Source: Niabella aurantiaca DSM 17617 (GTDB taxonomy: Bacteria; Bacteroidota; Bacteroidia; Chitinophagales; Chitinophagaceae). Taken from it: 64,000 nucleotides of DNA. The stretch is taken from contig NZ_KB893645.1 in NCBI RefSeq assembly GCF_000374125.1, positions 186,109 to 250,108 of the forward strand, given 5' to 3'. A program made the translations under genes and the position numbers. Position 1 is the stretch's first letter; each line of letters begins with the position of its first letter. The notes under the pieces were generated by a model that was given only the letters and a program-made list of their open reading frames with translations, ran no database searches and was not told the DNA's origin. Positions 25,248-51,371 of the stretch are shown here, piece after piece.

Positions 25248-25289
25248 GTTTCAGGTAAAAACCATTAACCATGAACTATCGCCCATGAA

Positions 25290-26435: not shown

Positions 26436-26474
26436 ATTAAAATCTATCTTTTATCATTTTTTTGTTTCTTTGAT

Positions 26475-26600: not shown

Positions 26601-26641
26601 TTAGAGTCTATTGTCCAGATCCTTATCTGAATTTCCTGCCC

Positions 26642-28654: not shown

Positions 28655-28699
28655 TGGAGTACGAGGTCAATTGCGAAAAATAAAATTGTCCGGAGCGGG

Positions 28700-29479: not shown

Positions 29480-29492
29480 TGTTTGATAGATC

Positions 29493-30466: not shown

Positions 30467-30522
30467 GATTTGTTTATATGCCGCCTCTACGAGGCTTGAT
30501 TAAATTTTTATCCGTGGGGTCA

Positions 30523-30775
30523 CCAACAGATGGCCCCGCCGGGGCCGGTCGGGTTCTTTGCTATCGATGTGTTTATGATGTATTCATCTTTGAACGGTTT
30601 ATTCTACCGGTAGATGGTCCCGCTGGGACCGGATGAGTCCTTTGAATCATCTGCCGTATATTTTCGCTGCCCGGTCATACTATTGATCAGCCCGTTTTAT
30701 TTATGGCGCCGTAGGTGCCGCTATGGGCAGCCTGTTGTACGTGGAAATCCGGAGCCCCGTAGGGGCGACCTGTTA
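30523..30775. repeat. REP array, right of the transposase (direct repeat of the left block)
   Basis: GGCCCC-GCC-GGGGCC sits near 30531-30545, GGTCCC-GCT-GGGACC at 30616-30630, and CCCC-GTA-GGGG near 30755-30765. Positions 30541-30775 repeat 29771-30007 with few differences (about 235 bp), so the transposase is bounded by long direct repeats. Positions 30776-30892 hold a further sequence with a GTGTGCGACGCAACG-like core that looks like another intergenic repeat. Confidence 0.78.
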
Positions 30776-30892
30776 CCATGCATGCACAAAAGCACAAGTG
30801 TGCGACGCAACGAGGCTGCCACCTGCACTACAGCTGGGTACATAAAAACCCGGTTATCCCATTGGCTGCCTGCTAACCCCTTCATGAGCTTG

Positions 30893-32554
30893 TTACATCC
30901 TGAATACCCCATTTTTTGTTTCCTCCCATTTTTTATTTAAAGAAACGGCAATGCCCAGTGCGATGATCTTCCGGGTATCCACCGGATCAATAATGCCATC
31001 GTCCCACAACCGGGCCGTGCTGTAATAAGCGGACCCTTCCGTTTCGTATTTTTTCAGGATCGATCGGCGCAGGGTTTCTTTTTCTGTTTCCGGGAACTCT
31101 TTGCCCGCGGCCTTTAGCTGCTCTTCTTTTACGGTGGTCAGTACGCCTGCTGCCTGCTCGCCGCCCATTACCGATATCTTGGCATGCGGCCACATAAATA
31201 GGAACCGGGGATCATAGGCGCGACCGCACATAGCATAGTTGCCCGCACCAAAGGACCCGCCAACTACCACGGTGAATTTGGGAACCCCGGCATTGGCGAC
31301 GGCGTGCACCATCTTGGCACCATCGCGGGCAATGCCTTTGTGCTCGTATTCCTTGCCTACAATAAAGCCGGTGATATTCTGTAAAAATAGAATAGGTGTT
31401 TGCCGCGCGGTGCAGAGCTCTATAAAATGGGCACCTTTTAAGGCCGATTCTCCAAACAGCACACCGTTGTTGGCAATGATGCCCACCGGGTAGCCTAGGA
31501 TATGCGCAAAACCGGTGACCAGCGTAGGAGCATAAGCGGCTTTGAATTCATGAAAAAGGCTGCCATCCACCAGTCGTGCGATGATCTCCCTGGCATCCAC
31601 CTGTTTTTTCAGATCTGTTGACACCAGTCCGTAAAGCTCCTGTGGATCGTACAATGGATCCTCCGGCGTAACCTGCTCCAGTGGCTGTACTTCCGGCTGT
31701 TTAAAGGTCCGGATGATATTCCTGCAAATGACCAGCGCATGGGGATCGTTCTCTGCAATATGGTCGGCCACTCCGGAAACCGAAGTGTGCACCACGGCGC
31801 CACCCAGTTCTTCTGCCGTTACTTCCTCGCCGGTAGCGGCTTTTACCAGGGGCGGACCACCAATAAAAATGGTGCCCTGGTTCCGCACGATGATGGTTTC
31901 ATCACTCATGGCCGGAACATAGGCCCCGCCTGCGGTACAAGAGCCCATCACGATGGCGATCTGGGGAATGCCGGCAGCGGACATTCTTGCCTGGTTGTAA
32001 AAGAAACGGCCAAAATCATGGCGGTCTGGAAATACCTTATCCTGCTCCGGCAAAAAGGCCCCGCCGGAGTCCACCATATAAATGCAGGGAAGCTGATTGT
32101 CCAGGGCAATCTCTTGTGCCCGTACATGCTTTTTTATGGTCAGCTCCATATAAGTGCCGCCTTTTACGGTGGCATCGTTAGCAATGATCATCACCATACG
32201 CCCGTGTACGGCGCCGATCCCGGTGATGATGCCTGCCGATGGAAATTGATTGTCATACATGCCAAAGGCAGCGAGGGGCGAAAGCTCCAGGAAGGGCGTG
32301 TTTGGGTCCAGCAGCTGATCTACCCGCTCCCTTGCCAGCAGTTTCCCTCTTTTTTTATGTTTCTGAACGGAAGGCAGGTCCTCATTATGCAGCAAGCTTT
32401 TCATATGCTGAGCGTACTGCTCCAGCAACTGCCGGTAGGCACGCTGATTTTCATTAAATGCGGCAGAACAGATATCTACCATTGATTGGATCCGGTACAC
32501 GACGCTATTTTTTTGTTCCTCTAAAGTTATACGAAGTAAGGGAAAATTTTTCAT
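30893..32554 (-). CDS. mccB: Methylcrotonyl-CoA carboxylase, carboxyltransferase beta subunit
   Basis: Carboxyltransferase subunit (553 residues from the first ATG at 32554; a TTG four codons upstream is an alternative). It moves carboxyl from biotin to methylcrotonyl-CoA. Visible family segments: [57 protein letters not shown], then [22 protein letters not shown] and [19 protein letters not shown]; this latter set is the MccB rather than the PccB form. It is the first gene of the leucine run as transcribed. A perfect 14-bp palindrome lies just before its start and may be an operator. Confidence 0.93.
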
Positions 32555-32559
32555 ATAAG

Positions 32560-32573
32560 CTAACAATTGTTAG
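32560..32573. promoter_or_regulatory. Perfect palindrome at the head of the leucine cluster
   Basis: CTAACAATTGTTAG is a perfect 14-bp palindrome 5 bp upstream of the mccB ATG. Its shape and length suit a dimeric repressor such as a TetR-family protein. No regulator gene is adjacent and no second copy was seen in the cluster. Confidence 0.45.
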
Positions 32574-36956: not shown

Positions 36957-37406
36957 ATGGCTGTAAAGATATATTTTGAAGATTTTGTGCCGGGAGAAAA
37001 GCGAACAACTACCGGGAGGACCATTACCGAGGCGGATATTGTATTGCATGCCGGACAGACCGGGGATTTTTATCCGCACCACATGGATGCAGAATGGTGC
37101 AAAACACAGCCCTTTAAACAGCGGATCGCACATGGTACCCTTATCTTTAGCATAGCCGTAGGATCAACCGCCGGGGTGATCAATGAAGTGGCCATGACTT
37201 ATGGCTATGAGCGGCTACGGTTCATAGCCCCGGTATTTATCCATGATACGATAAAAACAACCCTCACCATTAAAGAAAAAAAAGCGCACAAAAAGCCGGG
37301 GTACGGTATTGTGTCGGAGCTGCTGGAAGTGCATAACCAGGAAGGACAGCTGGTGATGGTTTGCGAGCATTTATTGCTGGTGGAAAAAAAGGAGCAGCAT
37401 GGATAA
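36957..37406 (+). CDS. MaoC-like (R)-hydratase domain protein
   Basis: A 149-residue hot-dog-fold protein, starting at the ATG at 36957. The hydratase-2 motif is GDFYPHHMD, giving catalytic candidates D37 and H42, followed by [18 protein letters not shown]. Such proteins add or remove water from 2-enoyl-CoA or related thioesters. It is the first gene of the seven-gene operon and overlaps the next gene by 8 bp. With two CoA-transferases downstream it probably dehydrates or hydrates a sugar-acid-derived CoA thioester, but the substrate is unknown. Family members next to CaiB genes include mesaconyl-CoA-type hydratases. Confidence 0.87.
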
Positions 37407-38550
37407 GGTGGTATTAAAAGGCATCGCCTGGGATCACAGTAGGGGTATGGTACCCCTTCAGGCAGCAGCTCAGCGTTTCAGCGAGCTGCACCCGAATGTA
37501 CAGGTACTGTGGGAAAAACGCAGCCTGCAGGCTTTTGCAGATTATTCCATTGAGAAGCTGACAGAAACTTATGACCTGCTGATCATCGATCATCCCTGGG
37601 CGGGCAGCGCTTCGGTAACCAATTGCGTGCTGCCGTTGAACGAATACCTTCCCGAAGTTTTCCTAAAGGAGCTGCAGTTGCATTCAGTGGGCGCTTCGCA
37701 CAACAGCTATGCTTACGATGGCGGTCAGTGGGCGCTGGCCATTGATGCGGCAACGCCCGTGGCCAGCATGCGACCGGATCTCTTGCAGCAACACCAGGTG
37801 CCGCAAACCTGGGAGGATGTAATGGCCATTGCAGAAAAAGGAAAAGCTGCGGCACCAGCCATCCCCATCGACCTGCTGATGAATTTTTATACCTTTGGCC
37901 GGGCGCATGGCGGCAGTCTGTTCGAAAACGGAGAGGTGATTGATACAAAAGCGGGTATTGCTGCATTGAATACGATGAAAGCGTTCTATAGCCTGCTGGA
38001 CCGTCGCTTTTTTTCGATGAACCCCATAGCCGTTGCAGAAGCCATGAGCAATACCGACGACTACGGGTATTGCCCCTTTGCCTACGGATATTCCAATTAT
38101 TCAAGAAAACATTATAGCAGGCAAACACTGGTATACACAAATGTTGTTACATTCAACCGACAGCCCCTTCAGACCACATTGGGCGGCACCGGTATTGCCG
38201 TTTCGGCACACAGCCGCCAGCCCGCCATTGCCGTGGATTTTGTGCAATTTGTTTGTTCTCCGGAATGGCAGGGAACGGAGTATATCCTGACCGGCGGGCA
38301 ACCGGGATATGATTTTGGTTATGATGATGAAGTGAACAACCGGGTATGTAACGGATTTTTTAAAAACACCCGGGCAACCCTTGAGCGCGCTTATATACGT
38401 CCGCGTTATCACGGGTACCTGCACTTCCAGGATGCCGGGGGATTTTATATCCAGGAATATTTAAAGGGCAATACCCAGTCACCGCAAACAGTACTTACTA
38501 AATTAAATACGCTTTATGCGGAAAGCTTAAAATTGGAAGCGATCCTATGA
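37399..38550 (+). CDS. Extracellular-type solute-binding protein without signal peptide
   Basis: A 383-residue protein of the family 1 (sugar-type) solute-binding fold: [20 protein letters not shown] at the start, [39 protein letters not shown], then [15 protein letters not shown] and a C-terminal lobe with [24 protein letters not shown]. Unlike transport receptors it has no signal peptide or lipobox, and no ABC permease or ATPase lies in the window. It overlaps the maoC gene by 8 bp and the first CoA-transferase gene by 4 bp, so translation is coupled to a catabolic operon. It may be a cytosolic sugar/sugar-acid binder or have been recruited for catalysis. The role is unknown. Confidence 0.82.
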
Positions 38551-39689
38551 ACCAGCTACCACTAAACGGATTAATTGTGTTGGAGTTCAGCCAGTATTTG
38601 TCCGGCCCTTCAGGGGGGCTGCGACTGGCAGATCTTGGTGCACGCGTTATAAAAATTGAACGGCCGCAGGGCGGTGATCCCTGCCGGAGACTGGCCGTAA
38701 AGAACTTGTGGGTGGACGGGGATGCGCTTAATTTCCACGCCATCAACCGCAATAAAGAAAGCTTTACGGCGGATCTGAAAAATAAGGAAGATCTGGAACT
38801 GGTCAAAAAGCTGATCCGGAAAGCGGATGTAATCACCCATAATTTCCGGCCGGGTGTAATGGAAAAAATAGGCCTGGCTTACAAGGATGTAAAGGCGGTT
38901 AATGAAAAGATCATTTATGCGGAGATCAGTGGTTTTGGCCGCAGGGGCCCCTGGGCGAAAAAGCCGGGGCAGGACCTGCTGGTGCAGTCGTTGTCGGGGC
39001 TCGCCTATACCACGGGAAATGGCGGCGGGGCACCGGTTCCGTTTGGCCTGTCGGCAGTAGATTCTATTAGCGGTATTCACCTGGTGCAGGCCATACTGGG
39101 CGCATTGATCCGCAGACAGCGTGAAGGAAAGGGGGCGTATATTGAGCTCAGCCTGATCGAGTCCGCCATCGGGATGCAGTTTGAATTGTTTACCACCTTC
39201 TTTCACAGCAGGAACAGCATTCACCGCAGCAAGGTCAATAACGGCAACCCCCTATTGGGTGCCCCTTATGGAATTTATAAAACGGCGGATCATTTTCTTT
39301 CGCTGGCAATGATGGAACTCAGGGACCTGGCGGCGGCATTGGATTGGGAAGAGCTGAACGCGTTTGACCAGCAGGATGTTTTTCAGAAACGGGATGAAAT
39401 AAAGACACTGATCGCAAAGAAATTAAAAACCAATACAACCCGGCACTGGCTGGACCGGCTGCGTAGGAACGGGTTGTGGGCGGCTGCTGTTTATAGCTGG
39501 AAGGATCTTGATCAAACCGAGGGATACCAGGTATTAAAAATGGAGCAGGAGCTACAGGTAGGTGGTAAAACGATCCGCACCACGAGATGTCCGATTACGC
39601 TGAACGGGGAAAAATTGGTTTCGGCAAAAGCGGCGCCTGCGCTGGGAGCCGACAGGGAAGCGATCATTAAACATTTAATGGAGGGATAG
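38547..39689 (+). CDS. CaiB/BaiF-family (class III) CoA-transferase, first of two
   Basis: A 380-residue class III CoA-transferase that moves CoA between organic acids. The N-terminal LNGLIVLEFSQYLSGPSGGL and LADLGARVIKIERPQGGDPC, and VITHNFRPGVMEKIGL are family segments. The expected catalytic Asp is D172 in SAVDSISGIHLVQAILGAL. It overlaps the solute-binding gene by 4 bp and abuts its paralogue with no gap. These proteins are interlocked dimers; the pair could form a heteromer or serve two substrates. Confidence 0.92.
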   Translation: MNQLPLNGLIVLEFSQYLSGPSGGLRLADLGARVIKIERPQGGDPCRRLAVKNLWVDGDALNFHAINRNKESFTADLKNKEDLELVKKLIRKADVITHNFRPGVMEKIGLAYKDVKAVNEKIIYAEISGFGRRGPWAKKPGQDLLVQSLSGLAYTTGNGGGAPVPFGLSAVDSISGIHLVQAILGALIRRQREGKGAYIELSLIESAIGMQFELFTTFFHSRNSIHRSKVNNGNPLLGAPYGIYKTADHFLSLAMMELRDLAAALDWEELNAFDQQDVFQKRDEIKTLIAKKLKTNTTRHWLDRLRRNGLWAAAVYSWKDLDQTEGYQVLKMEQELQVGGKTIRTTRCPITLNGEKLVSAKAAPALGADREAIIKHLMEG

Positions 39690-40865
39690 ATGAACTTTCT
39701 AAACGATATTTTGGTGGTTGACTTCAGCCAGTTCCTTTCGGGGCCATCGGCATCCTTAACGCTTGCCGATCTGGGCGCGCGGGTGATCAAGGTCGAGCGC
39801 CCCGTTACCGGTGATATCTGCCGGGAACTGTATGTGTCGGATGTGGTCATCGATGGGGCGTCCTCGATCTTTCAGGCGATCAACCGGAGTAAAGAAAGTT
39901 ATACAGCTGATCTGAAAAATGCAGCAGATCTGATTAAAATAAAGAAACTGCTGAAGCGTGCGGATGTGGTGATTCATAACTTCCGCCCGGGTGTAATAGA
40001 GCGGCTGGGATTGGATTACCAAACGGTGAAACAGCTTAATCCGTCTGTGGTGTATGCCAGTATCAGCGGTTTTGGTGCAGAAGGCCCCTGGAAAGATCTG
40101 CCGGGGCAGGACCTGTTATTGCAGTCGGCAACCGGTATAGCATTGCTGAACAATACCGCTCACGAAAACCCCACCCCCCTGGGTGTTTCCATTGTGGACA
40201 TCTTATCCGGGGCGCATCTTGCACAGGGGATCTTATCCCTGCTGTATCAGAAAATGGTTTCAGGAACGGGGGGCGAAGTACAGGTAAGCATGCTGGAAAG
40301 TGCACTTGATTTTCAGTTTGAATTGTTGACCTGCTATTACAATGATGGTCATGACCTGCCGCAGCGCAGTACCGTGAACGGTGGTCATCCTTATGTGGGC
40401 GCTCCCTATGGTATTTATAAAACAGCCGATTCCTGGCTGGCCCTGGCCATGACGGACATTGTAGTACTGGGGCAGCTGACGGATTGCTATGCACTGCTGG
40501 CCTATACCAACAGGGATGAATGGTTTACCCGGCGCGATGCGATCAAGCAGGTACTGGCAGCGCATTTGCAGCAGCGGTCTACAAAGGAATGGCTGGCGGT
40601 ACTGGAGCCGGCCGACATCTGGTGCTCGGAAGTGCTGGACTATACCGGGTTGAGGAACCATCCGGCCTATAAGGAGCTGGAGATGGAAATGACGGTAAAG
40701 AACAGCAACGGCACGGTCATTACGACCACGCGCTGCCCCTTTAAGATCGACGGGCAGCTGCTCACCAGTACAACGGGTGCCCCGCTGCTGGGTGAACATA
40801 CAAATGCCATTGATAAAGAATTTGGATTAAATCAATTGCAAAAAGAGGGCGCTGTAGTATCTTAG
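39690..40865 (+). CDS. CaiB/BaiF-family (class III) CoA-transferase, second of two
   Basis: A 391-residue paralogue of the preceding enzyme, clearly similar along its length: LVVDFSQFLSGPSASLTLAD, VVIHNFRPGVIERLG, and catalytic Asp D170 in SIVDILSGAHLAQGIL. The start codon follows the previous stop directly. Both copies keep the catalytic Asp, so neither looks like an inactive partner. After its stop comes a 103-bp gap with a REP-like element, then the amidohydrolase gene. Confidence 0.92.
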   Translation: MNFLNDILVVDFSQFLSGPSASLTLADLGARVIKVERPVTGDICRELYVSDVVIDGASSIFQAINRSKESYTADLKNAADLIKIKKLLKRADVVIHNFRPGVIERLGLDYQTVKQLNPSVVYASISGFGAEGPWKDLPGQDLLLQSATGIALLNNTAHENPTPLGVSIVDILSGAHLAQGILSLLYQKMVSGTGGEVQVSMLESALDFQFELLTCYYNDGHDLPQRSTVNGGHPYVGAPYGIYKTADSWLALAMTDIVVLGQLTDCYALLAYTNRDEWFTRRDAIKQVLAAHLQQRSTKEWLAVLEPADIWCSEVLDYTGLRNHPAYKELEMEMTVKNSNGTVITTTRCPFKIDGQLLTSTTGAPLLGEHTNAIDKEFGLNQLQKEGAVVS

Positions 40866-40916
40866 GCAATTGTTTGTTTAAAGTTTCATATTTGAGGTTA
40901 GAATGACTAAAAATTA

Positions 40917-40953
40917 TCCCGCAGGGATGTACTATTGATAGCCCCATAGGGGT
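40917..40953. repeat. REP-like element within the sugar-acid operon
   Basis: TCCC-GCA-GGGA (40917-40927) and CCCC-ATA-GGGG (40942-40952) are two small palindromes separated by TACTATTGAT, a string also found in the REP arrays beside the transposase near 29909 and 30679. It is a satellite copy of that family. Confidence 0.65.
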
Positions 40954-40968
40954 GATATATTGGTAATT

Positions 40969-41826
40969 ATGATCATCGACACACATATACATATCTGGGA
41001 TACGACAAAATCATCCTACGGCTGGTTGTCCGGCGCGCCGGAACTATTGAAACGTACATATGCGATCGGCGAGCTGGATGCAGCAAGAAAAGCGGCTGGC
41101 ATTAGTGCTGGTATCTTTGTACAGGCAGATGTGCAGATGGAGGATTCCTTCCATATGCTGGATGTAGCCCGGAGCACAGACTGGATCAAAGGTGTGGTGA
41201 GCTGGTTGCCGCTGGCCGATACGGAACGTACGGTAGCCCTGCTGGAACAGCGGCTGTTGAAGGACGAATACTTTGCAGGCGTACGCCACCTCATTCATGA
41301 TGAAAACGATCCGCAATGGTTATTGCAGCCCGCAGTGATCGCAAGCCTGAAAGTACTGGCGGCTCGTAATATTCCGTATGATGTGGTGGGGGTGCTGCCG
41401 GAACATATTGAAACTATTTTAAAAGTGGCGGAACAGGTTCCTGAACTACGTATGGTTTTTGACCATCTGAATGCCCCTCCCATTAGCAGCGGCACACGTT
41501 ATGGACAATGGGGCACATTGATGCAGGAGGCTGCAAAGAATAAAAATATATATGCGAAAATATCCGGGCTGGGAACGGTAGCGGGCACTGAAAAGTTTAC
41601 TGTGGATCGGCTGAAACCTTATATTGAATTTGTCCTGGAACATTTCGGCGCCGATCGTTGTTTTTGCGGTGGTGACTGGCCGGTATCCTTACTGGCAGGG
41701 GATTATGTGTACACCTGGGATGTTTATAAAAAAGTATGGTCGTCATTGCTGGCGGCTGAAGCACTGGAGAACGTGTACGCCGGCAATGCGATCCGATTTT
41801 ACAACCTGAAGCTGGATCAGTCTTAA
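40969..41826 (+). CDS. Amidohydrolase-family lactonase (fuconolactonase/rhamnonolactonase-like)
   Basis: A 285-residue TIM-barrel hydrolase of the amidohydrolase-2 group (COG3618 type), which includes L-fucono-lactonase, L-rhamnono-lactonase and pyrone-dicarboxylate lactonase. Start at 40969 (MIIDTHIHIWDTT). Metal and active-site segments: DTHIHIWD, FVQADVQMED, GVRHLIHDEND, MVFDHLNAPPI and a late CGGDWPVSLLAGDY with the conserved Asp. It lies 2 bp before the transporter gene. In a sugar operon with a dehydrogenase, opening a sugar lactone to the acid is the expected reaction; the sugar is unproven. Confidence 0.87.
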   Translation: MIIDTHIHIWDTTKSSYGWLSGAPELLKRTYAIGELDAARKAAGISAGIFVQADVQMEDSFHMLDVARSTDWIKGVVSWLPLADTERTVALLEQRLLKDEYFAGVRHLIHDENDPQWLLQPAVIASLKVLAARNIPYDVVGVLPEHIETILKVAEQVPELRMVFDHLNAPPISSGTRYGQWGTLMQEAAKNKNIYAKISGLGTVAGTEKFTVDRLKPYIEFVLEHFGADRCFCGGDWPVSLLAGDYVYTWDVYKKVWSSLLAAEALENVYAGNAIRFYNLKLDQS

Positions 41827-41828
41827 AA

Positions 41829-42857
41829 ATGCAATTATTCAACGGCATATTTTTCCACGGGGTAGGTGCTTCATCTGCGGCACTGTGCTATACACCCGAA
41901 AAAAAAGTACGGGGCTGGTCCTGGCAAACATATTGGCTGGCACAGGCGGCCGTTTGCTGGCTGATCCTGCCGGTGGTGGTAGCCCTGATCACAGTGCCGT
42001 CCCTGGATGTGGTTTTACAGGAAGCGCCGCGGACAGCCATGATCCGGTCCTTCCTGCTGGGTATGGCCTATGGCGTTGGCGGAACAGCATTTGGCATGGC
42101 CATTCGTTACATTGGCTTTTCACTGACCTACGCGGTCTCCGTCGGGTTGTCCTGTGTGCTGGGCACATTGGTCCCGCCGGTAATGGACGGTTCCATCAGC
42201 ACGGTGATAAAAGGCACCGGGGGAAACTGGATCCTTACCGGGGTTTTTCTGGGTGCGGTGGGAATTGCTTTTTGCGGGGTTGCCGGCCGGATGAAAGAAA
42301 AAGAAAACAGCGCGGCCACGCAGGGCTATTCTTTTAAGAAAGGGCTGCCCTTGTGTATATTGGCCGGTATCCTCTCCGCTTTTTATGGTTTTGCCATCAA
42401 TGCGGGGAAGCCCGTTTCGGATCTTGCTGCCGCGCATGGAGCAGGAAATTTCCAGGTGAATGCGGTATATATTTTCTCCAATTCAGGTGCTTTTCTAACC
42501 ACACTGGTTTACTCATTGTACCTGCATCGGAAAAACCGCACATTCGGGGAATACAGACGTGCAGCGGTGCCGGGAGCACTAACCACCAATTATTTGATGG
42601 CCACACTTACCGGTTTTTTTTGGTACGGACAGTTTTTTTTCTATGGGCTCGGGCATGTAAACCTGGGCAGGTACGAGTTTTCCAGCTGGGCCATACACAT
42701 GATCCTGCTGGTGCTGTTCAGCGCGATAGTCGGAATGGTACTGAAGGAATGGAAGTTTACAAAAGCACGCACCAGGCGGGTGTTGGCAGGGGCGCTGCTG
42801 GTCTTGCTGCTTTCCGTAATACTGTTAACCTATGGTAATTATAAAGGAGGATCCTGA
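41829..42857 (+). CDS. rhaT: RhaT-type L-rhamnose/sugar-proton symporter family permease
   Basis: A 342-residue inner-membrane protein with about ten hydrophobic helices of the RhaT family (drug/metabolite superfamily). Recognised segments are GIFFHGVGASSAALCYTPEK (the first helix, compare FHxxGAxxAAxFYxPxK in RhaT), SFLLGMAYGVGGTAFGMAIR and CILAGILSAFYGFAINAGKP. It should bring a sugar such as L-rhamnose or a related 6-deoxy or L-sugar into the cytoplasm with protons. No rhamnose isomerase, kinase or aldolase lies here, so the operon may import a different sugar or degrade it without phosphorylation. Confidence 0.88.
   Translation: MQLFNGIFFHGVGASSAALCYTPEKKVRGWSWQTYWLAQAAVCWLILPVVVALITVPSLDVVLQEAPRTAMIRSFLLGMAYGVGGTAFGMAIRYIGFSLTYAVSVGLSCVLGTLVPPVMDGSISTVIKGTGGNWILTGVFLGAVGIAFCGVAGRMKEKENSAATQGYSFKKGLPLCILAGILSAFYGFAINAGKPVSDLAAAHGAGNFQVNAVYIFSNSGAFLTTLVYSLYLHRKNRTFGEYRRAAVPGALTTNYLMATLTGFFWYGQFFFYGLGHVNLGRYEFSSWAIHMILLVLFSAIVGMVLKEWKFTKARTRRVLAGALLVLLLSVILLTYGNYKGGS
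42843..42850 (+). promoter_or_regulatory. Strong Shine-Dalgarno site before the dehydrogenase gene
   Basis: AAAGGAGG ends 8 bp before the ATG at 42859 and helps to choose this start. Such clear purine-rich sites are unusual in Bacteroidota, where many genes lack one. It lies inside the end of the rhaT gene. Confidence 0.6.
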
Positions 42858-42858
42858 T

Positions 42859-43905
42859 ATGAATGACCAGGCGATTGGTATATGTATAATTGGAGCGGGG
42901 GGTATTGTAAATGATGCGCACCTGCCGGCGTACCGGATGGCGGGTTTTCATGTAAAAGGCATTGTAAACCGCAACAAACAAAAGGCGGAGGCGCTTGCTG
43001 CAAAATTTTCCATCCCGCGGGTATACGATTCGCTGGAAGCAATGGTAGCAGATCAGGATGAACAGGTGATCTATGATTATGCGCTGCCCGCCTCGGAAAC
43101 GGTGGGGGTATTGCGGCAGCTGCCCGATGGCGCGGCCGTGCTGATCCAAAAACCCCTGGGCGAAAGCATTGAAGAAGCGAGGGCCATACGGGAAACGGCA
43201 CACGCAAAAAAAATGCTGGCAGGTGTCAACTTCCAGCTTCGTTTTGCACCCTTTGTCCTCGAAGCAAAAAAAATGATCAGCGCGGGACAGATCGGTACGC
43301 TTACCGATATAGAGATTTATGTGAATGTGTATACACCCTGGAACCTCTGGTCGTTCCTGTTTGAAAAGCCGCGCATGGAGATCAATTACCATAGCGTTCA
43401 TTATATAGATCTGATACGGTCCTTTCTTGGAAATCCGGCTGGTGTATATGCCAAAACATACAAGCACCCCGATTCTTTACAACTGGCTTCTGTTAAAAGT
43501 ACCATCATTATGGATTACGGCAACTTCATCAGGGCCACTATCCATACCAATCACCATCATGATTTTGGGTATCAGCACCAGGAATCCTATATAAAAATAG
43601 AGGGTACCGGGGGCGCTGTTAAAATGAGCCTGGGTGTGCTGATCAATTACCCGCATGGCATTCCCGATACATTTGAATATATAACAGCCGTTCCGGGGGA
43701 AGTCCCCGAATGGCGGTCAAAGAAAATAGACGGCTCCTGGTTTCCCCATGCCTTCATTGGTACCATGGAGCAGATGATCCGGGCAAAGAAAGGGCTCATC
43801 GAAATGCCTGAAAACAATATTGATGATGCTTTCGATACGATGAGATGCGTGGAAGCTGCTTACATCAGCAGCGAACGGGGAGGGGTTTTATTGTCCTCTG
43901 TATAA
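42859..43905 (+). CDS. Gfo/Idh/MocA-family sugar oxidoreductase
   Basis: A 348-residue NAD(P)-dependent dehydrogenase of the Gfo/Idh/MocA family. The Rossmann motif is GICIIGAGGIVNDAHLPAY; the QKPLGES segment replaces the usual EKP motif with QKP (Lys kept); NYHSVHYIDLIRSFLG supplies the usual acidic/His catalytic region. Start at 42859, preceded by a strong ribosome site and one base after the rhaT stop. It lacks a signal peptide, so it acts in the cytoplasm, where it could oxidise an imported sugar to the lactone for the amidohydrolase. Cofactor and sugar are unknown. It is the last gene of the operon. Confidence 0.9.
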   Translation: MNDQAIGICIIGAGGIVNDAHLPAYRMAGFHVKGIVNRNKQKAEALAAKFSIPRVYDSLEAMVADQDEQVIYDYALPASETVGVLRQLPDGAAVLIQKPLGESIEEARAIRETAHAKKMLAGVNFQLRFAPFVLEAKKMISAGQIGTLTDIEIYVNVYTPWNLWSFLFEKPRMEINYHSVHYIDLIRSFLGNPAGVYAKTYKHPDSLQLASVKSTIIMDYGNFIRATIHTNHHHDFGYQHQESYIKIEGTGGAVKMSLGVLINYPHGIPDTFEYITAVPGEVPEWRSKKIDGSWFPHAFIGTMEQMIRAKKGLIEMPENNIDDAFDTMRCVEAAYISSERGGVLLSSV

Positions 43906-44080: not shown

Positions 44081-46810
44081 ATGAAGTACAGAATGCATAA
44101 ACGGATGAGAGGGGTATTAACGATTATTTTGCTGGTGGCCACCGTGCCGTTATCTGCCCTGGCCGCAAAGGAAAAAGTCACCATCGGGATTTCGTCAAAT
44201 GCGACGGAACGGGTGAAGTATGGCGCAGCGCAATTGAAAAGCGGGCTTATAGCGGCAGGCTATGAAACAAGGCTTACTGCATCCGCAGAACCGGTAAGCG
44301 GCACCTGGATCCGCCTGTCTACTTCCGGCAAAGGCAAAAAGGAAAGCTTTTCCATTGAAGCAAAGGACAACCAGGTACTGATAACAGGAGCTGATGCCAC
44401 CGGAACCCTGTATGGATGTCTGGAGTTGGCGGACCGTATTAAAACGAACGGTACCCTTCCGGGAACGCTGTCATTCTCCGATGCTCCTGAAATGGTGCTG
44501 CGCGGGGAATGCATCGGTATTCAGAAGCCCTATTACCTGCCCGGGCACAATGTGTATGAATATCCCTATACGCCCCAGACCTTCCCCTGGCTGTATGACA
44601 AAAAATTATGGATGCAGGTGCTGGATTCGATGGTGCACAACCGGATGAATTCATTATACCTCTGGAACGGGCATCCCTTTGCATCGCTGGTAAGGCTGAA
44701 GGATTATCCTTATGCAGTGGAGGTGGATGAAGCTACTTTTAAAAAAAACGAAGAAATGTACCGCTTCCTGACCACGGAAGCAGATAAGCGTGGCATCTGG
44801 GTGATACAGATGTTTTACAATATTATTGTATCAAAGCCTTTTGCAGAAAAGAACCACCTGAAAACACAGGAACGCGAGCGGCCGATCATTCCCCTGATTG
44901 CGGATTATACCCGTAAGTCGATCGCGGCCTTTGTAGAAAAGTATCCCAATGTAGGGCTGATGGTTTGCCTGGGTGAAGCGATGGAAGGAGTGGGCAATGA
45001 CGATATCGAGTGGTTTACAAAAACCATCATTCCCGGTGTACGGGATGGTATGAAGGCGCTGGGCATCAAAGAAGAACCGCCGATCGTATTGCGTGCGCAT
45101 GATACCGACGCCCCTTCTGTAATGAAAGCAGCGCTACCCCTGTATAAGAATTTATATACCGAAGCAAAGTTCAATGGTGAAGCATTGACGATGCCCAGAC
45201 CAAGAGGTGAATGGGCAAGGCTCCACCAGACATTGAGCCGGCTGGGGAGTGTGCACATTGCCAATGTACATATCCTGGCCAACCTGGAGCCATTCCGTTA
45301 CGGATCGCCGGATTTTATTCAGCAAAGTGTAGCGGGAATGAATGAAGTGCTGGGTGCCCACGGATTGCATCTGTACCCGGAATCATCGTATTGGGACTGG
45401 CCCTATAGCGCCGACCGTATCAATGGAGGAAAGCGCCTGTTGCAGATAGAGCGCGACTGGATCTGGTATAAGGCCTGGGGCCGGTATGCGTGGCAATCGA
45501 AACGCAGCCGCAGGGAGGAGATCCGTTACTGGAGCAGGTTGATGGGCGACCAGTTCGGAGTTGGCAAAGAAGAAGGTGCCGCCATTTTGCAGGCTTACGA
45601 AGCAATGGGCCAGATCGCTCCCAAGCTGTTGCGACGCTTTGGCATTACAGATGGCAACCGCCAAACGCTGACCTTGGGGATGCTGATGACGCAGCTGATC
45701 AATCCCTACCGATATGGCCTGTTTACCCTGTTGTATGAAGGGGAGAGTCCGGAAGGCGAAATGCTGATCGATTATGCCGATAAGGAATGGAAGGGCATTG
45801 CCCATCATGGAGAAACACCGGTACAGGTGGCACATGAAGTGCGGGCGCATGGCGATGCTGCAGTAGCGGCTTTGAAGACGATCGGGCGGGTGACAAAAAA
45901 CAAGGACGAGTTTGCGCGCATTGAAAACGATGCGGCCTGCTACCGGGCCCTTGCCTATCATTATGCGGCAAAAGCTGAAGCGGCCCTATGGGTGTTGCGG
46001 TATAAATATTCGGACGATATAAACGACCTTGAAAAAGCATTGCCTTTATTAAAGGAGAGTATGAACTGGTACCGGAAGCTGGTGGACCTTACGAAGGGTA
46101 CTTATCTCTATGCCAACAGTATGCAAACCAAACAGCGGAAGATCCCCATCCGTGGGGTGGACGGCACTTTTAAAACATGGGAGGAAGTGCTGGTCCCGTT
46201 TGAGCAGGAGCTGAAAGTGTTTCAACACAGGCTGGATTCCTTAAAAAAGAACCCGCAGGAAAATGCCGTGCAGGTAAAGGCCTACACGGCTGCCAAAATA
46301 ATGAACAAGGACAAGCCGGTAGCGGCATTTGTGATCGACAGCCTGGTGCAACCTTTTTCGGATACCGCCTGGGCCATCAGGTCCTACGCGCCCGAACTGA
46401 AGGGGTTGAAGGGGCTGAAGCTTTCTTATAAAGCACAGCTGCAAAATGGAACATTCTATACGTTCAGCAATACCCGCCCCGTAAAAGTGCTGGTAGGCTT
46501 TTTCCAACCGCAGAAGGCGGCCTTTTCGAAAGATACGCTTTACCTGAAGGCGCCCGAACTGGAAACGAATGCGCTGGCCAACGATTATGGCCAGGCAGAA
46601 ACCAAGATCGCCAATGCGCTGGTGATACCCGGTATGCCGCAATTAAATGTGCATATGTACGAATTTAAGCCGGGCATCAATACGCTTAAGCTCGGCAAAG
46701 GAGTAGCCATCGTATTGGGATTTATAGAAGGCAGTCAACCCATAAAAGTTTACGATGCAGGCTTGTATGAAAGTGGCAATAGAAAGCAGGTGGACTGGCT
46801 GTTTGAGTAA
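44081..46810 (+). CDS. Large secreted glycosidase, alpha-galacturonidase-type (GH67/GH115-like)
   Basis: A 909-residue exported protein with a signal peptide (hydrophobic run RGVLTIILLVATVPLSALAA). Residues ~30-145 look like the alpha/beta N-terminal domain seen before GH67/GH20/GH115 barrels (ADATGTLYGCLELADRI). The centre (about 150-480) fits a TIM barrel, with PYTPQTFPWLYDKKLWMQVL, HNRMNSLYLWNGHPFASLVR and LMVCLGEAMEGVGNDD, the last offering acidic catalytic candidates. The C-terminal half is helical then beta. Similar Bacteroidota proteins are annotated as alpha-galacturonidases; I rely on recollection for that. The neighbouring GH28 polygalacturonase supports a uronic-acid substrate. Three start codons exist (44081, 44093, 44105). 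Confidence 0.65.
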   Translation: MKYRMHKRMRGVLTIILLVATVPLSALAAKEKVTIGISSNATERVKYGAAQLKSGLIAAGYETRLTASAEPVSGTWIRLSTSGKGKKESFSIEAKDNQVLITGADATGTLYGCLELADRIKTNGTLPGTLSFSDAPEMVLRGECIGIQKPYYLPGHNVYEYPYTPQTFPWLYDKKLWMQVLDSMVHNRMNSLYLWNGHPFASLVRLKDYPYAVEVDEATFKKNEEMYRFLTTEADKRGIWVIQMFYNIIVSKPFAEKNHLKTQERERPIIPLIADYTRKSIAAFVEKYPNVGLMVCLGEAMEGVGNDDIEWFTKTIIPGVRDGMKALGIKEEPPIVLRAHDTDAPSVMKAALPLYKNLYTEAKFNGEALTMPRPRGEWARLHQTLSRLGSVHIANVHILANLEPFRYGSPDFIQQSVAGMNEVLGAHGLHLYPESSYWDWPYSADRINGGKRLLQIERDWIWYKAWGRYAWQSKRSRREEIRYWSRLMGDQFGVGKEEGAAILQAYEAMGQIAPKLLRRFGITDGNRQTLTLGMLMTQLINPYRYGLFTLLYEGESPEGEMLIDYADKEWKGIAHHGETPVQVAHEVRAHGDAAVAALKTIGRVTKNKDEFARIENDAACYRALAYHYAAKAEAALWVLRYKYSDDINDLEKALPLLKESMNWYRKLVDLTKGTYLYANSMQTKQRKIPIRGVDGTFKTWEEVLVPFEQELKVFQHRLDSLKKNPQENAVQVKAYTAAKIMNKDKPVAAFVIDSLVQPFSDTAWAIRSYAPELKGLKGLKLSYKAQLQNGTFYTFSNTRPVKVLVGFFQPQKAAFSKDTLYLKAPELETNALANDYGQAETKIANALVIPGMPQLNVHMYEFKPGINTLKLGKGVAIVLGFIEGSQPIKVYDAGLYESGNRKQVDWLFE

Positions 46811-46882
46811 AATGATACCTCCGGCTGGTGTCCGCACGGGCCGGATGATAAAATAAAGACCATGAACAATATTAAATTCTAT

Positions 46883-48436
46883 ATGAAAAAAGCTTTTTTA
46901 CTGTGCTGCCTGGCTGTTGCCGGAAGCTGGATATCGGCGCAGTCCTATTTTGACATAACCCGCTTCGGCGCCAAAAAGGACAGCAGCGCCAAAGCAACGG
47001 CAGCGATCGCAAAAGCCATTAAGGCGGCATCTGCGGCCGGAGGGGGAACGGTGTACTTTCCTGCAGGAAAATACCTTACCGGTCCCATTCATTTAAAAAG
47101 CAACATCACCCTGCTGATCGATGCCGGCGCCGAACTGCATTTCAGTGATGACTTCGATGATTACCTGCCCATGGTGGAAAGCCGGTACGAAGGGGTGGAT
47201 GTGACCAGTTTTTCCCCGTTGTTTTATGCCAACGGGGTGGAGAATATTGCCATAACCGGGAGAGGCACCCTTTATGGTCATGGTAAGAAATGGTGGGATT
47301 TTGTTGAAGGATATAAAGAAGGGCAACCGCGTTCCAAATGGCAGCTGGAGTTTGACCGGTTGAACAAGAATATTCTTTTGCCGGATGATCCGAAGCAAAT
47401 GAAACGCGGATTTTTGCGACCACCCTTTATCCAGTTCATGCATAGTAAGAATATCCTGATCCAGGGGATCACGATACGCAATTCACCGTTCTGGACCATC
47501 AACCCGCAGTTTTGCGATAATGTAACGGTGCACGCTGTTACCATCATCAACCCCGGCCGGAATGCACCCAATACCGACGGTATCAATCCCGAAAGCTGCC
47601 GCAATGTGCACATCAGCGATTGCCATATCAGCGTGGGTGATGACTGCATTACTATTAAATCGGGAAAAGATGCCCCCGGGCGTGCAAAAGCCCGGCCGGC
47701 CGAGAATTATACGATCACGAATTGTACCATGCTCAGCGGGCATGGGGGGGTGGTGATCGGCAGCGAGATGAGCGGCGGCGTTAAAAAGATCGCGATCAGT
47801 AACTGTATTTTTGATGGTACCGACCGTGGCATCCGCATTAAAACGACCCGTGGCAGGGGCGGCGTGGTGGAAGATATACGGGTAAGCAATATTGTGATGA
47901 AGAATATAGGGCAGCAGGCCATTGTGCTGGATATGGAGTATGCAAAGGCTCCGGAAGAACCGGTGTCTGAGCGGACGCCCCGTTTCCGGAACATCCGGTT
48001 GAGCAATATCACTGCTTATACCAAAGAAGCAATGTATGTGAACGGACTAAAGGAAATGCCGGTGTCAGAGATCAGTCTGAATGATGTGGTCTTTGAGGCC
48101 GAGCGGGGCATTACCCTGAAAAATGCTGCGGATATTTCATTCAGTAATGTGCGGGTGAATACGCAAACCGGGCCGGCATTAAAAGCAGATGCCACAGAAC
48201 GGCTCACGATCCTTAATTTTGAGGCGGCCCGGCTTCCGGCGGACGTTCCGCTGCTGCGGTTAAATGATGTGAAAGGCGCACGCATCCAGGATTGCTGGCC
48301 GTTTGACAGGGCACAGCAATTTGCCGAGATCACGGGAGCGGAAACGGAGCATCTTCTGTTTGAGGATAACGTGGTAACCAATGAGCAGATCAGGCTGGGT
48401 AGTGAAGTGAAAAAAGAGGCGGTAAAGATGGATTAG
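46883..48436 (+). CDS. GH28 polygalacturonase-family protein, secreted
   Basis: A 517-residue right-handed beta-helix enzyme of GH28, which hydrolyses galacturonosyl (or rhamnogalacturonan) linkages in pectin. The ATG at 46883 starts a signal peptide (MKKAFLLCCLAVAGSWISA). All GH28 catalytic motifs are in order: N230-T-D-G, G252-D253-D254, G-H287-G and R318-I-K320. The length fits exo-acting bacterial members. It lies 72 bp after the large glycosidase gene and 106 bp before the GH95 gene, all on one strand. Confidence 0.93.
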   Translation: MKKAFLLCCLAVAGSWISAQSYFDITRFGAKKDSSAKATAAIAKAIKAASAAGGGTVYFPAGKYLTGPIHLKSNITLLIDAGAELHFSDDFDDYLPMVESRYEGVDVTSFSPLFYANGVENIAITGRGTLYGHGKKWWDFVEGYKEGQPRSKWQLEFDRLNKNILLPDDPKQMKRGFLRPPFIQFMHSKNILIQGITIRNSPFWTINPQFCDNVTVHAVTIINPGRNAPNTDGINPESCRNVHISDCHISVGDDCITIKSGKDAPGRAKARPAENYTITNCTMLSGHGGVVIGSEMSGGVKKIAISNCIFDGTDRGIRIKTTRGRGGVVEDIRVSNIVMKNIGQQAIVLDMEYAKAPEEPVSERTPRFRNIRLSNITAYTKEAMYVNGLKEMPVSEISLNDVVFEAERGITLKNAADISFSNVRVNTQTGPALKADATERLTILNFEAARLPADVPLLRLNDVKGARIQDCWPFDRAQQFAEITGAETEHLLFEDNVVTNEQIRLGSEVKKEAVKMD

Positions 48437-48542: not shown

Positions 48543-51371
48543 ATGAAGAAGTATAAGGGTATTTTATTGTTGACGGCGCTCTTTTTGGGAATATCAGTAA
48601 CCCGGTCACAGGATCTGAAACTTTGGTACGACCGGCCCGCGGCCGAATGGGTAGAAGCATTGCCCATCGGGAATGGTCGTTTGGGAGCCATGGTTTTCGG
48701 AGGCGTGGCCGATGACCGGATCCAGTTCAATGAAGAAACACTGTGGTCCGGAGGACCGCGCGATTATAACCGGAAGGGAGCGTATAAATACCTCGATTCG
48801 ATAAGAGGTTTATTGTTTGCCGGTAAACAAAGACAAGCCGAAGATCTGGCCGGCCGGGAATTTTTGGGACTGAAATCAGCCGAAGGCGACCGCGCCGCCT
48901 GGACCACAAAGATGAAGGCTATTCTGAAACAAAAGAATAATCCCTCCGGGGCAAGCTATAACGACCGCGATTGGAAACGGATTCATGTGCCCAACTATGA
49001 CGGCTGGGAAAAAGAAGGGATTGGAGAACTGGATGGTGCCGTATGGTTCCGCACCGGCTTTGAGCTGCCCGCAGGTTGGAAGGGTAAGTCGTTGGAGCTG
49101 GATCTGAACAAGATCGCTGAGCAGGATATCACTTTTGTAAACGGCGTTAAGGTAGGCGCACAGAACAACGGAGAGGCGCGCATATACAACGTGCCGGCCA
49201 CCGCATTAAAGGCGGGTAAAAACAATATTGCCATCCTGGTGCTGAATGTTGCCGGAAAAGGCGGGATCCTTGGGTATAAGGATACCAGTAGGCCCATTGG
49301 TATTTATCCCGCCGGAAAACCGGAAGAAAAATTATCACTGAACGGTCAGTGGAAGTATTGGATCCAATCTGACAAAGTGCCCGCGGTAGGAGAGTACCAG
49401 GCCCGTTATCAGCCTTTTGGCGATGTGCATTTTTATTTTGATGTGGATGCGTCATCAGTTACGGAATACCGGCGCACACTGAACCTGGAAGATGCGGAGT
49501 TGACCACCTCTTATAAGAGCGGCGGCACAAGGTTTAAGCGCACATATATTGCCAGTGTACCCGATCAGGTGATCGCGGTAAACCTTACGGCCGACAAAGC
49601 CGGGGCGATCAGCTTTGAAACGGCACTTTCCAGTCCGCACCGGAGTTATACTCTGAAACAAACGGACCCCCATACCGTGGCGCTTCATGTACAGGTAAAG
49701 GACGGGGCCTTGTTTGGAGACAGCTATGTGCGGGTGACAACGAAGAACGGAAATATTGCTGTAAAAGACAACCGGCTTGTGGTACGCAATGCCGATGAAG
49801 CAACCGTATGGATAACGGCAGCGACCAATTACCGCAACTATAAAGATGTGTCCGGGCAACCTGCTGCGCTTTGTAAAGCGGCATTGCAAAAAATAGGGCA
49901 AAAGGCTTTTGCCGCGGTACTGCACGATCATATAAAAGAATACCAGCAATATTTTCATACGCTTTCCCTGGATTTTTACAACAAGTCGATACCGACGGAT
50001 AACACACAGTTGTCCACGGACCAGCGGCTGGCGCAGTTCTCCCGTTCCGGGGATCCGGGGTTTGTAGCACTGTACCTCCAGTACGGGCGATACCTGCTTA
50101 TCAGCAGTTCGCGGCCGGGAACCTATCCGGCGAATTTGCAGGGCATCTGGAACGACCTGTTGTCCCCACCCTGGGGCAGCAAGTACACAACGAATATCAA
50201 TGCGGAGATGAACTACTGGCCGGCAGAATTGCTGGGACTGTCGCCCCTGCACAGCGCATTTTTTAAGATGACGCAGGAAGTGGCTGCGTCCGGGCGCAAA
50301 ACGGCAAAAGAATATTACAATGCTCCCGGCTGGGTATTGCACCACAATACTGATCTCTGGCGGGGCACCGCACCCATCAATGCCTCCAATCACGGCATCT
50401 GGGTTACGGGGGGCGCCTGGTTCTGCGAGCATCTTTGGGAACATTACCTGTTTACAAAAGACGAACGCTTTTTAAAAGACACTGCTTATCCCATTATGAA
50501 GGACGCAGCGTTGTTCTTTAATACCTTCCTGATCAAAGACCCGGTGAGCGGTTACCTCATCAGCACCCCTTCCAACTCGCCCGAACAGGGCGGACTGGTA
50601 GCGGGCCCCACGATGGACCACCAGATCATCCGTGCCCTGTTCCAAAATACCATCGAAGCATCCAAGATCCTGGGCAGGGATGCTGCATTCAGGAAAGAGC
50701 TTGAAGATAAATATTCCCGGATCGTACCCAATAAGATCGGGCGTTATGGCCAGTTGCAGGAATGGATGCAGGATGTGGATGATACCACCAACAAGCACCG
50801 TCATGTATCGCATCTTTGGGGTGTTTATCCCGGAAATGAGATCAACTGGGAAAAAACGCCGGACCTGATGAAAGCCGCCCGCCAGTCGCTGATCTATCGC
50901 GGCGATGCCGCCACGGGCTGGAGCCTGGGCTGGAAGATCAACCTGTGGGCGCGCTTCAAAGACGGCAATCATACCTACAAACTGATCCAGATGTTGCTGA
51001 GCCCGGCGGGGAGAGGCGCCGGCAGCTATCCCAATTTATTTGATGCGCATCCACCGTTCCAGATCGATGGCAATTTCGGCGGAGCCGCCGGTATTGGCGA
51101 AATGCTGCTGCAGTCCCATACCGGTTTTATCGATATTCTCCCGGCCTTGCCGGATGCATTGCCCGGTGGCCGGATCAATGGCATTCATGCACGCGGAGGA
51201 CTGATACTGGATCTGAAATGGGAAAACAAACAGCTGACAGCACTTACCATAAAGGCCGTTGCGGATGGCAAAGTCACCCTGCGCTACAATGGTGTGGTGC
51301 TGCCTTTTGCATTTAAAAAAGGGAAAAGCTATAAAATTGCCCTTGATCTTAAAAGCGTGGAGGCGTTATAA
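48543..51371 (+). CDS. GH95-family alpha-L-fucosidase/galactosidase with inserted jelly-roll domain
   Basis: A 942-residue exported hydrolase of GH95, which removes terminal alpha-L-fucose or alpha-L-galactose. Signal peptide, then the family start AEWVEALPIGNGRLGAMVFG and QFNEETLWSGGP. The (alpha/alpha)6 barrel holds TNINAEMNYWPAELLGLS and TPSNSPEQGG, plus DGNFGGAAGIGEMLLQ near the end. Residues ~111-283 are an insertion not found in ordinary GH95: a beta-sandwich resembling the sugar-binding domain of GH2 or sialate-esterase proteins (GAVWFRTGFELP, DITFVNGVKVG, LNGQWKYWI). After it the normal fold resumes at YQPFGDVHFYF. This explains the length, ~150 residues above usual. Confidence 0.9.
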   Translation: MKKYKGILLLTALFLGISVTRSQDLKLWYDRPAAEWVEALPIGNGRLGAMVFGGVADDRIQFNEETLWSGGPRDYNRKGAYKYLDSIRGLLFAGKQRQAEDLAGREFLGLKSAEGDRAAWTTKMKAILKQKNNPSGASYNDRDWKRIHVPNYDGWEKEGIGELDGAVWFRTGFELPAGWKGKSLELDLNKIAEQDITFVNGVKVGAQNNGEARIYNVPATALKAGKNNIAILVLNVAGKGGILGYKDTSRPIGIYPAGKPEEKLSLNGQWKYWIQSDKVPAVGEYQARYQPFGDVHFYFDVDASSVTEYRRTLNLEDAELTTSYKSGGTRFKRTYIASVPDQVIAVNLTADKAGAISFETALSSPHRSYTLKQTDPHTVALHVQVKDGALFGDSYVRVTTKNGNIAVKDNRLVVRNADEATVWITAATNYRNYKDVSGQPAALCKAALQKIGQKAFAAVLHDHIKEYQQYFHTLSLDFYNKSIPTDNTQLSTDQRLAQFSRSGDPGFVALYLQYGRYLLISSSRPGTYPANLQGIWNDLLSPPWGSKYTTNINAEMNYWPAELLGLSPLHSAFFKMTQEVAASGRKTAKEYYNAPGWVLHHNTDLWRGTAPINASNHGIWVTGGAWFCEHLWEHYLFTKDERFLKDTAYPIMKDAALFFNTFLIKDPVSGYLISTPSNSPEQGGLVAGPTMDHQIIRALFQNTIEASKILGRDAAFRKELEDKYSRIVPNKIGRYGQLQEWMQDVDDTTNKHRHVSHLWGVYPGNEINWEKTPDLMKAARQSLIYRGDAATGWSLGWKINLWARFKDGNHTYKLIQMLLSPAGRGAGSYPNLFDAHPPFQIDGNFGGAAGIGEMLLQSHTGFIDILPALPDALPGGRINGIHARGGLILDLKWENKQLTALTIKAVADGKVTLRYNGVVLPFAFKKGKSYKIALDLKSVEAL

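Follow-up and report, generated by a model that had tools for sequence, protein, structure and literature searches.

Gene organization of the cassette

A 64,000-nucleotide stretch of the genome of Niabella aurantiaca DSM 17617 (NCBI RefSeq assembly GCF_000374125.1, contig NZ_KB893645.1, positions 186,109 to 250,108 of the forward strand), hereafter called the window, was analysed with a focus on a cassette of seven open reading frames (ORFs) at 36957-43905, all on the plus strand, which may direct the breakdown of a sugar acid through a CoA thioester. At five of the six junctions, neighbouring genes overlap or stand no more than 2 bp apart, and the sixth, from the second CoA-transferase gene to the amidohydrolase gene, is a gap of 103 bp. 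The features are as follows.

36957..37406, plus strand: MaoC-type (hydratase 2) dehydratase, 149 aa (PF01575, 82.4 bits)
37399..38550, plus strand: solute-binding-protein-like protein (SBP), 383 aa (PF01547/PF13416); 8-bp overlap with MaoC
38547..39689, plus strand: class III CoA-transferase paralogue 1 (Cai1), with Asp172 (PF02515, 314.4 bits); 4-bp overlap with SBP
39690..40865, plus strand: class III CoA-transferase paralogue 2 (Cai2), with Asp170 (PF02515, 306.4 bits); 0 bp after Cai1
40866..40968: gap of 103 bp, not a repeated element
40969..41826, plus strand: Amidohydrolase_2 protein of the fucono-lactonase kind (AmH; PF04909, 124.8 bits)
41829..42857, plus strand: RhaT-family sugar permease (PF06379, 210 bits); 2-bp gap after AmH
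42832..43905, plus strand: Gfo/Idh/MocA dehydrogenase (PF01408, PF22725); 26-bp overlap with the RhaT-like gene

The ORF coordinates and the Pfam and NCBIfam scores agreed with the original prediction, made from the nucleotide sequence of the window, that seven plus-strand genes of these families are tightly joined apart from the 103 bp. The Gfo/Idh/MocA gene may instead start from the ATG at 42859, giving a 1-bp gap in place of the 26-bp overlap. The 103-bp gap had been presumed to be a repetitive extragenic palindromic (REP) element. This candidate was ruled out, as the 41-bp core of the gap was present in one copy at up to 3 mismatches in the 5.9-Mb genome. The 22-bp end of the gap occurred once in the window, and neither structured RNAs nor tRNAs were found there.

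Conservation and distribution

Searches with the SBP detected matches in 34 of the 195 genomes of the window's family (Chitinophagaceae), in 16 of 296 genomes drawn from the phylum (4 of these belonging to the same family), at three loci of genome contigs, one of them from Puniceicoccaceae, and in 145 of 72,556 plasmid records, mostly of Sinorhizobium. The closest named relatives, at 82% SBP identity, were Niabella pedocola and a Niabella metagenome-assembled genome. The 67 loci compared below are matches of these SBP searches and not a random sample; the plasmid loci were chosen by hand, S. meliloti pSymB is included twice (L034 and L096), L108 and L109 are near relatives, and L035 was left out, as was L081, whose SBP runs off the contig.

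All seven families were found in the order of the window at 23 of the 67 loci, the window included (19 exactly, and four with one extra homologue alongside). Within 9 kb of the SBP gene, a CoA-transferase gene was present at 64 loci, Gfo at 54 (a count that may take in loose homologues), MaoC at 51, AmH at 43 and RhaT at 31. As the same seven genes recurred in the same order at 23 loci, the grouping is far beyond chance, and the possibility, raised together with the original prediction, that they are joined only in this genome was contradicted.

The core, consisting of a class III CoA-transferase and the SBP, usually with Gfo and MaoC, extended to Cytophagales, Puniceicoccaceae and alphaproteobacteria. 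S. meliloti 1021 has homologues of the SBP, the CoA-transferase and MaoC, and a close strain also has that of Gfo. The Puniceicoccaceae locus (L003) contained Gfo, SBP, CaiB, two MaoC, RhaT and an amidohydrolase homologue of 29% identity, and genes for a DHDPS-family member and for a protein carrying two BMC shell domains adjoined the cassette (L003:14441-16108). Microcompartments for fucose and rhamnose occur in the phylum to which Puniceicoccaceae belong. In another set of clusters, designated type B and regarded as a sister system (L101, L103, L107, L108 and L109), the same SBP and CoA-transferase families were found with crotonase replacing MaoC.

Two further observations were made on the neighbours. 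The CoA-transferase, the unexported SBP and the enoyl-CoA hydratase of the type-B clusters are adjoined by SDR and aldose-1-epimerase genes, with FAH in three of the five clusters. A neighbour of approximately 303 aa recurred at L052:4240-5145 and seven other loci, and the one member examined was an AraC-type regulator.

Association with GH138 and rhamnogalacturonan-II

The cassette is followed by genes of the glycoside hydrolase (GH) families.

44081..46810, plus strand: GH138 alpha-D-galacturonidase, the next gene downstream (NF049878, 1413.8 bits, above the cut-off of 1300)
46862..48436, plus strand: GH28 glycosidase, pectin type (PF00295, 168.8 bits)
48543..51371, plus strand: GH95 glycosidase (PF22124, 573 bits)

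The product of 44081..46810 scored 1020 bits against BPa0997 (PDB 6hzf/6hze), which we take to be the GH138 enzyme of rhamnogalacturonan-II (RG-II). The pectin-type substrate context that had been proposed was thus narrowed to RG-II by the GH138 gene next door. A published network analysis tied GH138 to GH137, GH139, GH142 and GH143 in RG-II debranching (PMC7922503).

A GH138 homologue was located near the cassette at 21 of 51 loci besides the window, and within 220 bp at 14. Among the 195 family genomes, the CoA-transferase pair was present in 35, GH138 in 36 and both in 34 (Fisher 1.9e-34, such values ignoring the kinship of the genomes). The Jaccard index with the pair was 0.92 for GH138, compared with 0.37 for the control, any GH95 (95 genomes). 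The 35 genomes derive from 38 with a CoA-transferase match, of which G045, G124 and G090 were dropped for having a single divergent copy (35-38%), and the genome lists behind the co-occurrence counts were compiled by hand. With the SBP as the marker instead, the SBP was present in 34 genomes, GH138 in 36 and both in 31, corresponding at the genus level to 22, 23 and 20 of 101. Of the 195 genomes, only those with GH138 carried the full-length subgroup that includes the window GH95 (34 of the 36).

Of the 34 genomes having both, 31 had the pair and GH138 no more than 77 kb apart on the same contig, and 20 of these no more than 8.5 kb apart. Among the 12 genomes of other Bacteroidota with the SBP, GH138 was present in seven, always on the same contig at a distance of 64-87 kb. 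Given the co-occurrence in 34 of the 195 genomes, and in seven of the 12 outside, the cassette is strongly linked to RG-II within the family but only partly so elsewhere.

Families and active sites of the encoded enzymes

The MaoC protein is a member of PF01575 and retains the active-site motif of Asp37 and His42, with both residues invariant in 54/54 aligned homologues (five of the 59 homologues were left out as short or weak). Its nearest solved chain was 4ffu (E 1.5e-52), and the nearest NCBIfam model was PaaZ.

Cai1 and Cai2 both belong to PF02515, and class III CoA-transferase activity is predicted for both. The conserved Asp, presumably the catalytic Asp of class III CoA-transferases, was present in 111/111 aligned homologues, including these two. 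The nearest NCBIfam models were the succinate-glutarate and oxalate CoA-transferases, with scores far under the cut-off. In a quick tree of the 111 rows, the Bacteroidota copies formed two clades with support of 99 (Cai1) and 91, and single-copy rows from alphaproteobacteria and Puniceicoccaceae fell outside them. As both supported clades contained members from within and outside the family, the tree indicates that Cai1 and Cai2 are the products of an old duplication with both copies retained. In genome G027, Cai1 and Cai2 were fused in frame, forming one open frame of 795 codons; this fusion, seen in a single assembly where a sequencing error is possible, favours a heteromer.

AmH carries the HxH and GDW motifs, scored 143.7 bits against the L-fucono-1,5-lactonase model NF052480 (cut-off 400) and matched PDB 4dlf with 3.8e-20. 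The RhaT-like permease is a member of PF06379 and stayed below the cut-off of the equivalog model NF010024 (312.8 bits against 468). The top NCBIfam match of the Gfo/Idh/MocA protein was at 53.6 bits (cut-off 355), and its QKP motif, His190 and Asp193 were invariant in 57/57 aligned homologues.

A binding-protein fold without an export signal

A profile of 44 SBP homologues matched the trehalose/maltose-binding protein 1eu8 (1.3e-21) over most of its length, and 27 columns were invariant across these aligned proteins at identities down to 30%. A structure model built from four sequences had a mean pLDDT of 46.1 and was not used; the fold family therefore rests on sequence profiles.

Database records label members of the SBP family as extracellular or ABC-transporter substrate-binding proteins. 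The SBP sequence opens with the first strand of the protein, with the N-terminal consensus GITWxHSRG. A hydrophobic N-terminus was detected in 0/67 SBP homologues, compared with 10/12 SBPs from ABC operons of the same loci, and simple export was ruled out on this ground. The N-termini were taken from the residue matching Met1 of the window SBP. In several homologues (L001, L002, L034, L090 and others) the reading frame continues upstream of this point, and the trimmed start of L034 does not lie on a start codon; when the earliest possible start codon was used instead, a hydrophobic stretch was seen in one homologue, L082 (1.99 over 12 residues). Two of the ABC controls were under 1.8, and one (L100) seems to have been annotated too short. 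Neither the window operon nor the loci annotated in Rufibacter and Persicobacter contained ABC permease and ATPase genes. With no signal peptide and no adjoining ABC genes, a role as a transport component, as the solute-binding label of the original prediction suggests, was not supported. The protein would instead work in the cytosol, where it probably binds the sugar acid and assists the CoA-transferase as its partner or sensor.

A second SBP family, found at 13 loci with other cassettes, also lacked the hydrophobic N-terminus (0/13). Both families matched the trehalose/maltose-binding-protein family along the greater part of their sequences, and they matched each other at 97.5% probability. 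In Rufibacter and Persicobacter, the gene order was SBP, CoA-transferase, CoA-transferase, second SBP and Gfo. At L036:17556-18803 and 12 other loci, the second signal-less family occupies the AmH position in cassettes with two CoA-transferases.

Two other arrangements were observed. Cassettes with neither the SBP nor a transporter were found at L128, L129 and L130, in three Chitinophagaceae genomes. In Microvirga (L102:10985-13170), the SBP gene overlaps a mannonate-dehydratase-like gene and is accompanied by SMP-30, SDR and aldose-1-epimerase genes, with no CoA-transferase gene nearby.

Sugar-related neighbours

The transporter slot of the cassette alternates between RhaT-like and FucP proteins. 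The FucP of L071 exceeded the cut-off of TIGR00885 (383.7 against 280.4), and its homologues with 67-76% identity were detected at seven more loci. At seven of 13 chosen alphaproteobacterial loci, namely those of S. meliloti pSymB, Shinella, Roseibium, Thalassospira, Nitratireductor, Martelella and Pararhizobium, a CaiB-SBP pair, Gfo, MaoC, IclR and L-rhamnose mutarotase were encoded in one region. The annotations of these fucose-type loci also include an amidohydrolase at six (not Shinella), FAH at five, and L-fuconate dehydratase with an SDR at six (not Thalassospira). The FAH of S. meliloti scored 425.7 against the 2,4-didehydro-3-deoxy-L-rhamnonate hydrolase model (cut-off 500). The transporters, the fucose-type neighbours and those at L003 point tentatively to a 6-deoxy-L-hexose or L-galactose as the substrate. 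The oxidative sugar-acid logic proposed earlier fits the Gfo protein, the lactonase-family protein, the exchange of RhaT for FucP and the fucose-type neighbours in alphaproteobacteria.

None of the seven cassette genes encodes an enolase- or IlvD-type aldonate dehydratase, and an L-fuconate dehydratase homologue of 58-59% identity was missing from 34 of the 35 family genomes with the cassette. To this extent the earlier statement that no enolase-type dehydratase is present held. FAH, encoded outside the window operon, was found in 33 of the 35 cassette genomes, compared with 76 of the 160 other family genomes. A separate sugar-acid cluster lies on contig C1 of the window's genome (L123:7181-13877), with two SDR, an MR/MLE protein, an MFS transporter and FAH.

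Proposed pathway and alternatives

The original prediction of a sugar-to-acyl-CoA pathway survived as regards the conserved unit, the oxidative logic and the pectin context, and not as regards the REP element and the SBP as a transport part. We tentatively regard the seven genes as a cassette for the breakdown of a deoxy-type L-sugar (L-fucose/L-galactose-like) from RG-II via a CoA thioester, and place this reading somewhat short of an even chance. We infer the following reactions. After import of the sugar by the RhaT- or FucP-type permease, the Gfo/Idh/MocA dehydrogenase would oxidise C1 to give a lactone, which AmH would open to an aldonate. The heteromeric class III CoA-transferase Cai1/Cai2 would convert the aldonate into its aldonyl-CoA thioester, and MaoC would take water from C2-C3 to form 2-keto-3-deoxy-aldonyl-CoA, a step eased by the acidity of the thioester alpha-proton. 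The CoA-transferase would then move CoA from the dehydrated product onto the next aldonate, so that CoA would be catalytic and the net outcome of the cycle would be the same as that of an enolase-type aldonate dehydratase. The resulting keto-acid may be cleaved by enzymes encoded elsewhere (SDR and FAH) or, in Puniceicoccaceae, by the neighbouring DHDPS-type aldolase.

In carnitine metabolism by CaiB and CaiD, CoA is handed from the product to the next substrate. By analogy, the label "to acyl-CoA" may mislead, with CoA acting catalytically and not being the end product. The presence of crotonase in place of MaoC in the type-B clusters is expected if the second partner dehydrates an acyl-CoA.

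A broader proposal, which we consider possible but doubtful, is that these genes represent sugar-acid catabolism of a new kind. A self-renewing CoA cycle of a heteromeric CoA-transferase and MaoC or crotonase would replace the metal-dependent enolase- and IlvD-type dehydratases, and binding-protein-fold partners, relocated to the cytosol, would bind the sugar acids as subunits or sense them. Such a system would have spread over at least Bacteroidota, Verrucomicrobiota, Pseudomonadota and, as type B, Actinomycetota, and would serve in Chitinophagaceae as the intracellular arm of RG-II digestion.

Several observations weigh against the CoA-thioester pathway. The genomes G077, G109 and G180 keep MaoC, Cai1, Cai2, AmH and Gfo without the SBP and without a transporter, and the SBP would thus be an accessory and not an indispensable enzyme there. 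Conversely, three of the 67 loci (L082, L091 and L102) have the SBP with no CoA-transferase gene nearby. AmH, Gfo and the RhaT-like protein reached the cut-off of no specific NCBIfam model, so that their names give no substrate. GH138 indicates the polymer and not the sugar, and was missing from five of the 12 SBP-bearing genomes of other Bacteroidota. Six of the 13 chosen alphaproteobacterial loci were not of the fucose type, and in S. meliloti approximately 18 kb, including unrelated genes, separates the CaiB-SBP pair from Gfo-MaoC. The scarcity of a close L-fuconate dehydratase is a feature of the family in general (2/195 genomes), and eight of the 35 cassette genomes, including that of the window, hold a homologue of 38-59%. 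FAH is likewise common in the family (109/195 genomes). The chief weakness is that, in alphaproteobacteria, all but one of the seven fucose-type loci also hold L-fuconate dehydratase. The CoA module is therefore no simple replacement at those six loci and must do something extra, which gives ground for two of the alternatives below, epimerisation and a rare sugar.

In the epimerisation alternative, which we judge unlikely, the CoA thioester would serve to invert C2 or C3, by elimination and re-addition on MaoC or through a CaiB-family protein acting like a racemase; an ordinary enolase-type dehydratase would then take over the epimer. The alphaproteobacterial loci keep a second MR/MLE enzyme in addition to L-fuconate dehydratase beside the module, CaiB-family chains include alpha-methylacyl-CoA racemases, and the window's genome gave nine MR_MLE_C matches, eight of them above the cut-off. 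However, Cai1 and Cai2 are nearest to transferases in NCBIfam, as is Cai1 also in the PDB, and their Asp is invariant. We know of no such epimerisation.

Another possibility, in our estimate rather improbable, is that the substrate of the CoA-transferases and MaoC is not a sugar acid but, for example, a dicarboxylate, and that an independent pair for sugar oxidation only shares their operon. The nearest models, succinate-glutarate and oxalate CoA-transferase for Cai1/Cai2 (far below the cut-off) and PaaZ for MaoC, are consistent with this, whereas the presence of Gfo near the SBP at 54/67 loci and of MaoC at 51/67, together with sugar permeases of two unrelated families adjoining the same core, speaks against it.

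A rare RG-II sugar beyond the reach of ordinary aldonate dehydratases would also account for the tight GH138 link, for the module standing beside an annotated L-fuconate dehydratase at six alphaproteobacterial loci and for the second MaoC at some loci. RG-II contains aceric acid and 2-O-methyl-fucose, the candidates here, and elimination from 2-O-methyl-fuconate would yield an enol ether that loses methanol. We regard this as quite improbable, as related cassettes occur in Persicobacter and Roseibium, for which RG-II seems an unlikely food, and no methanol-oxidising partner was recognised, though no search was aimed at one.

Export of the SBP by an unusual route to feed the RhaT-type permease would agree with its Pfam class of extracellular SBPs and with the ABC transporters present at alphaproteobacterial loci, but is very improbable, given that the hydrophobic N-terminus is absent in 67/67, that those ABC operons have their own SBP, exported in most, and that ABC genes are absent from the window operon and from the annotated loci of Rufibacter and Persicobacter.

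Other features of the window

On the minus strand at 24117-32566, the window contains genes of a leucine/isovalerate-type route (HMGL-like, acyl-CoA dehydrogenase, biotin carboxylase, enoyl-CoA hydratase and carboxyl transferase). Similar genes lie approximately 4 kb after L-fuconate dehydratase in S. meliloti ABS7, probably by chance. A DUF5703 protein is encoded at 51751-54060 on the minus strand, and the region 57406-63828 contains two sulfatases on the plus strand and one sulfatase and a GH43 on the minus strand.

Comparison with known systems

A literature search, with preprints and most subscription journals outside it, found no published pathway matching the seven-gene set and no paper on fuconyl-, rhamnonyl-, galactonyl-, gluconyl-, aldonyl- or xylonyl-CoA, in agreement with the earlier statement that no described pathway with this exact set was known. 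The parts belong to known families, but we know of no precedent for their combination, for the pair of presumably cytosolic SBPs or for CoA chemistry on aldonates. Being conserved and linked to GH138, the cassette hints at the intracellular part of RG-II digestion, and the homologues of the SBP, the CoA-transferase and MaoC in S. meliloti 1021, widely used in laboratories, make the question directly testable.

With the non-phosphorylative (oxidative) L-fucose/L-rhamnose pathway the cassette would share a putative sugar dehydrogenase, an amidohydrolase related to fucono-lactonases and predicted import by RhaT/FucP, and the pathway's L-fuconate dehydratase and SDR stand beside the core at six chosen alphaproteobacterial loci. 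In contrast to that pathway, the cassette has no enolase- or IlvD-type dehydratase and has two class III CoA-transferases, MaoC and the unexported SBP. If the proposal is true, dehydration of aldonates by CoA cycling would add a new chemical answer to a step for which metal-dependent enzymes of the enolase and IlvD types are otherwise used.

The CaiB/CaiD carnitine cycle likewise combines a class III CoA-transferase with an acyl-CoA dehydratase family, and crotonase is found in the type-B relatives, whereas the window has MaoC in place of crotonase, a sugar context, two CoA-transferase paralogues and an SBP partner. Itaconate/mesaconate sets of a CoA-transferase and a MaoC hydratase (NF038241 RipB, NF041294) consist of the same two protein families. 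The scores stayed far under the cut-offs of these models (60.5 of 340; 156.6 and 165.4 of 700), and sugar genes adjoin the window genes, unlike those sets. Both CaiB-family chains of benzylsuccinate CoA-transferase (PDB 9fn0) matched Cai1, and the Cai1-Cai2 fusion similarly suggests a heteromer, but both window paralogues keep the Asp and the substrate class is different.

ABC solute-binding proteins of the 1eu8 kind belong to the same full-length sequence family as the SBP, from which the window protein differs in having no signal peptide and no adjoining ABC genes, and in its overlapping genes within a CoA-transferase operon. A binding-protein-fold family working inside the cell beside CoA-transferases would, if confirmed, correct the automatic annotation of these proteins.

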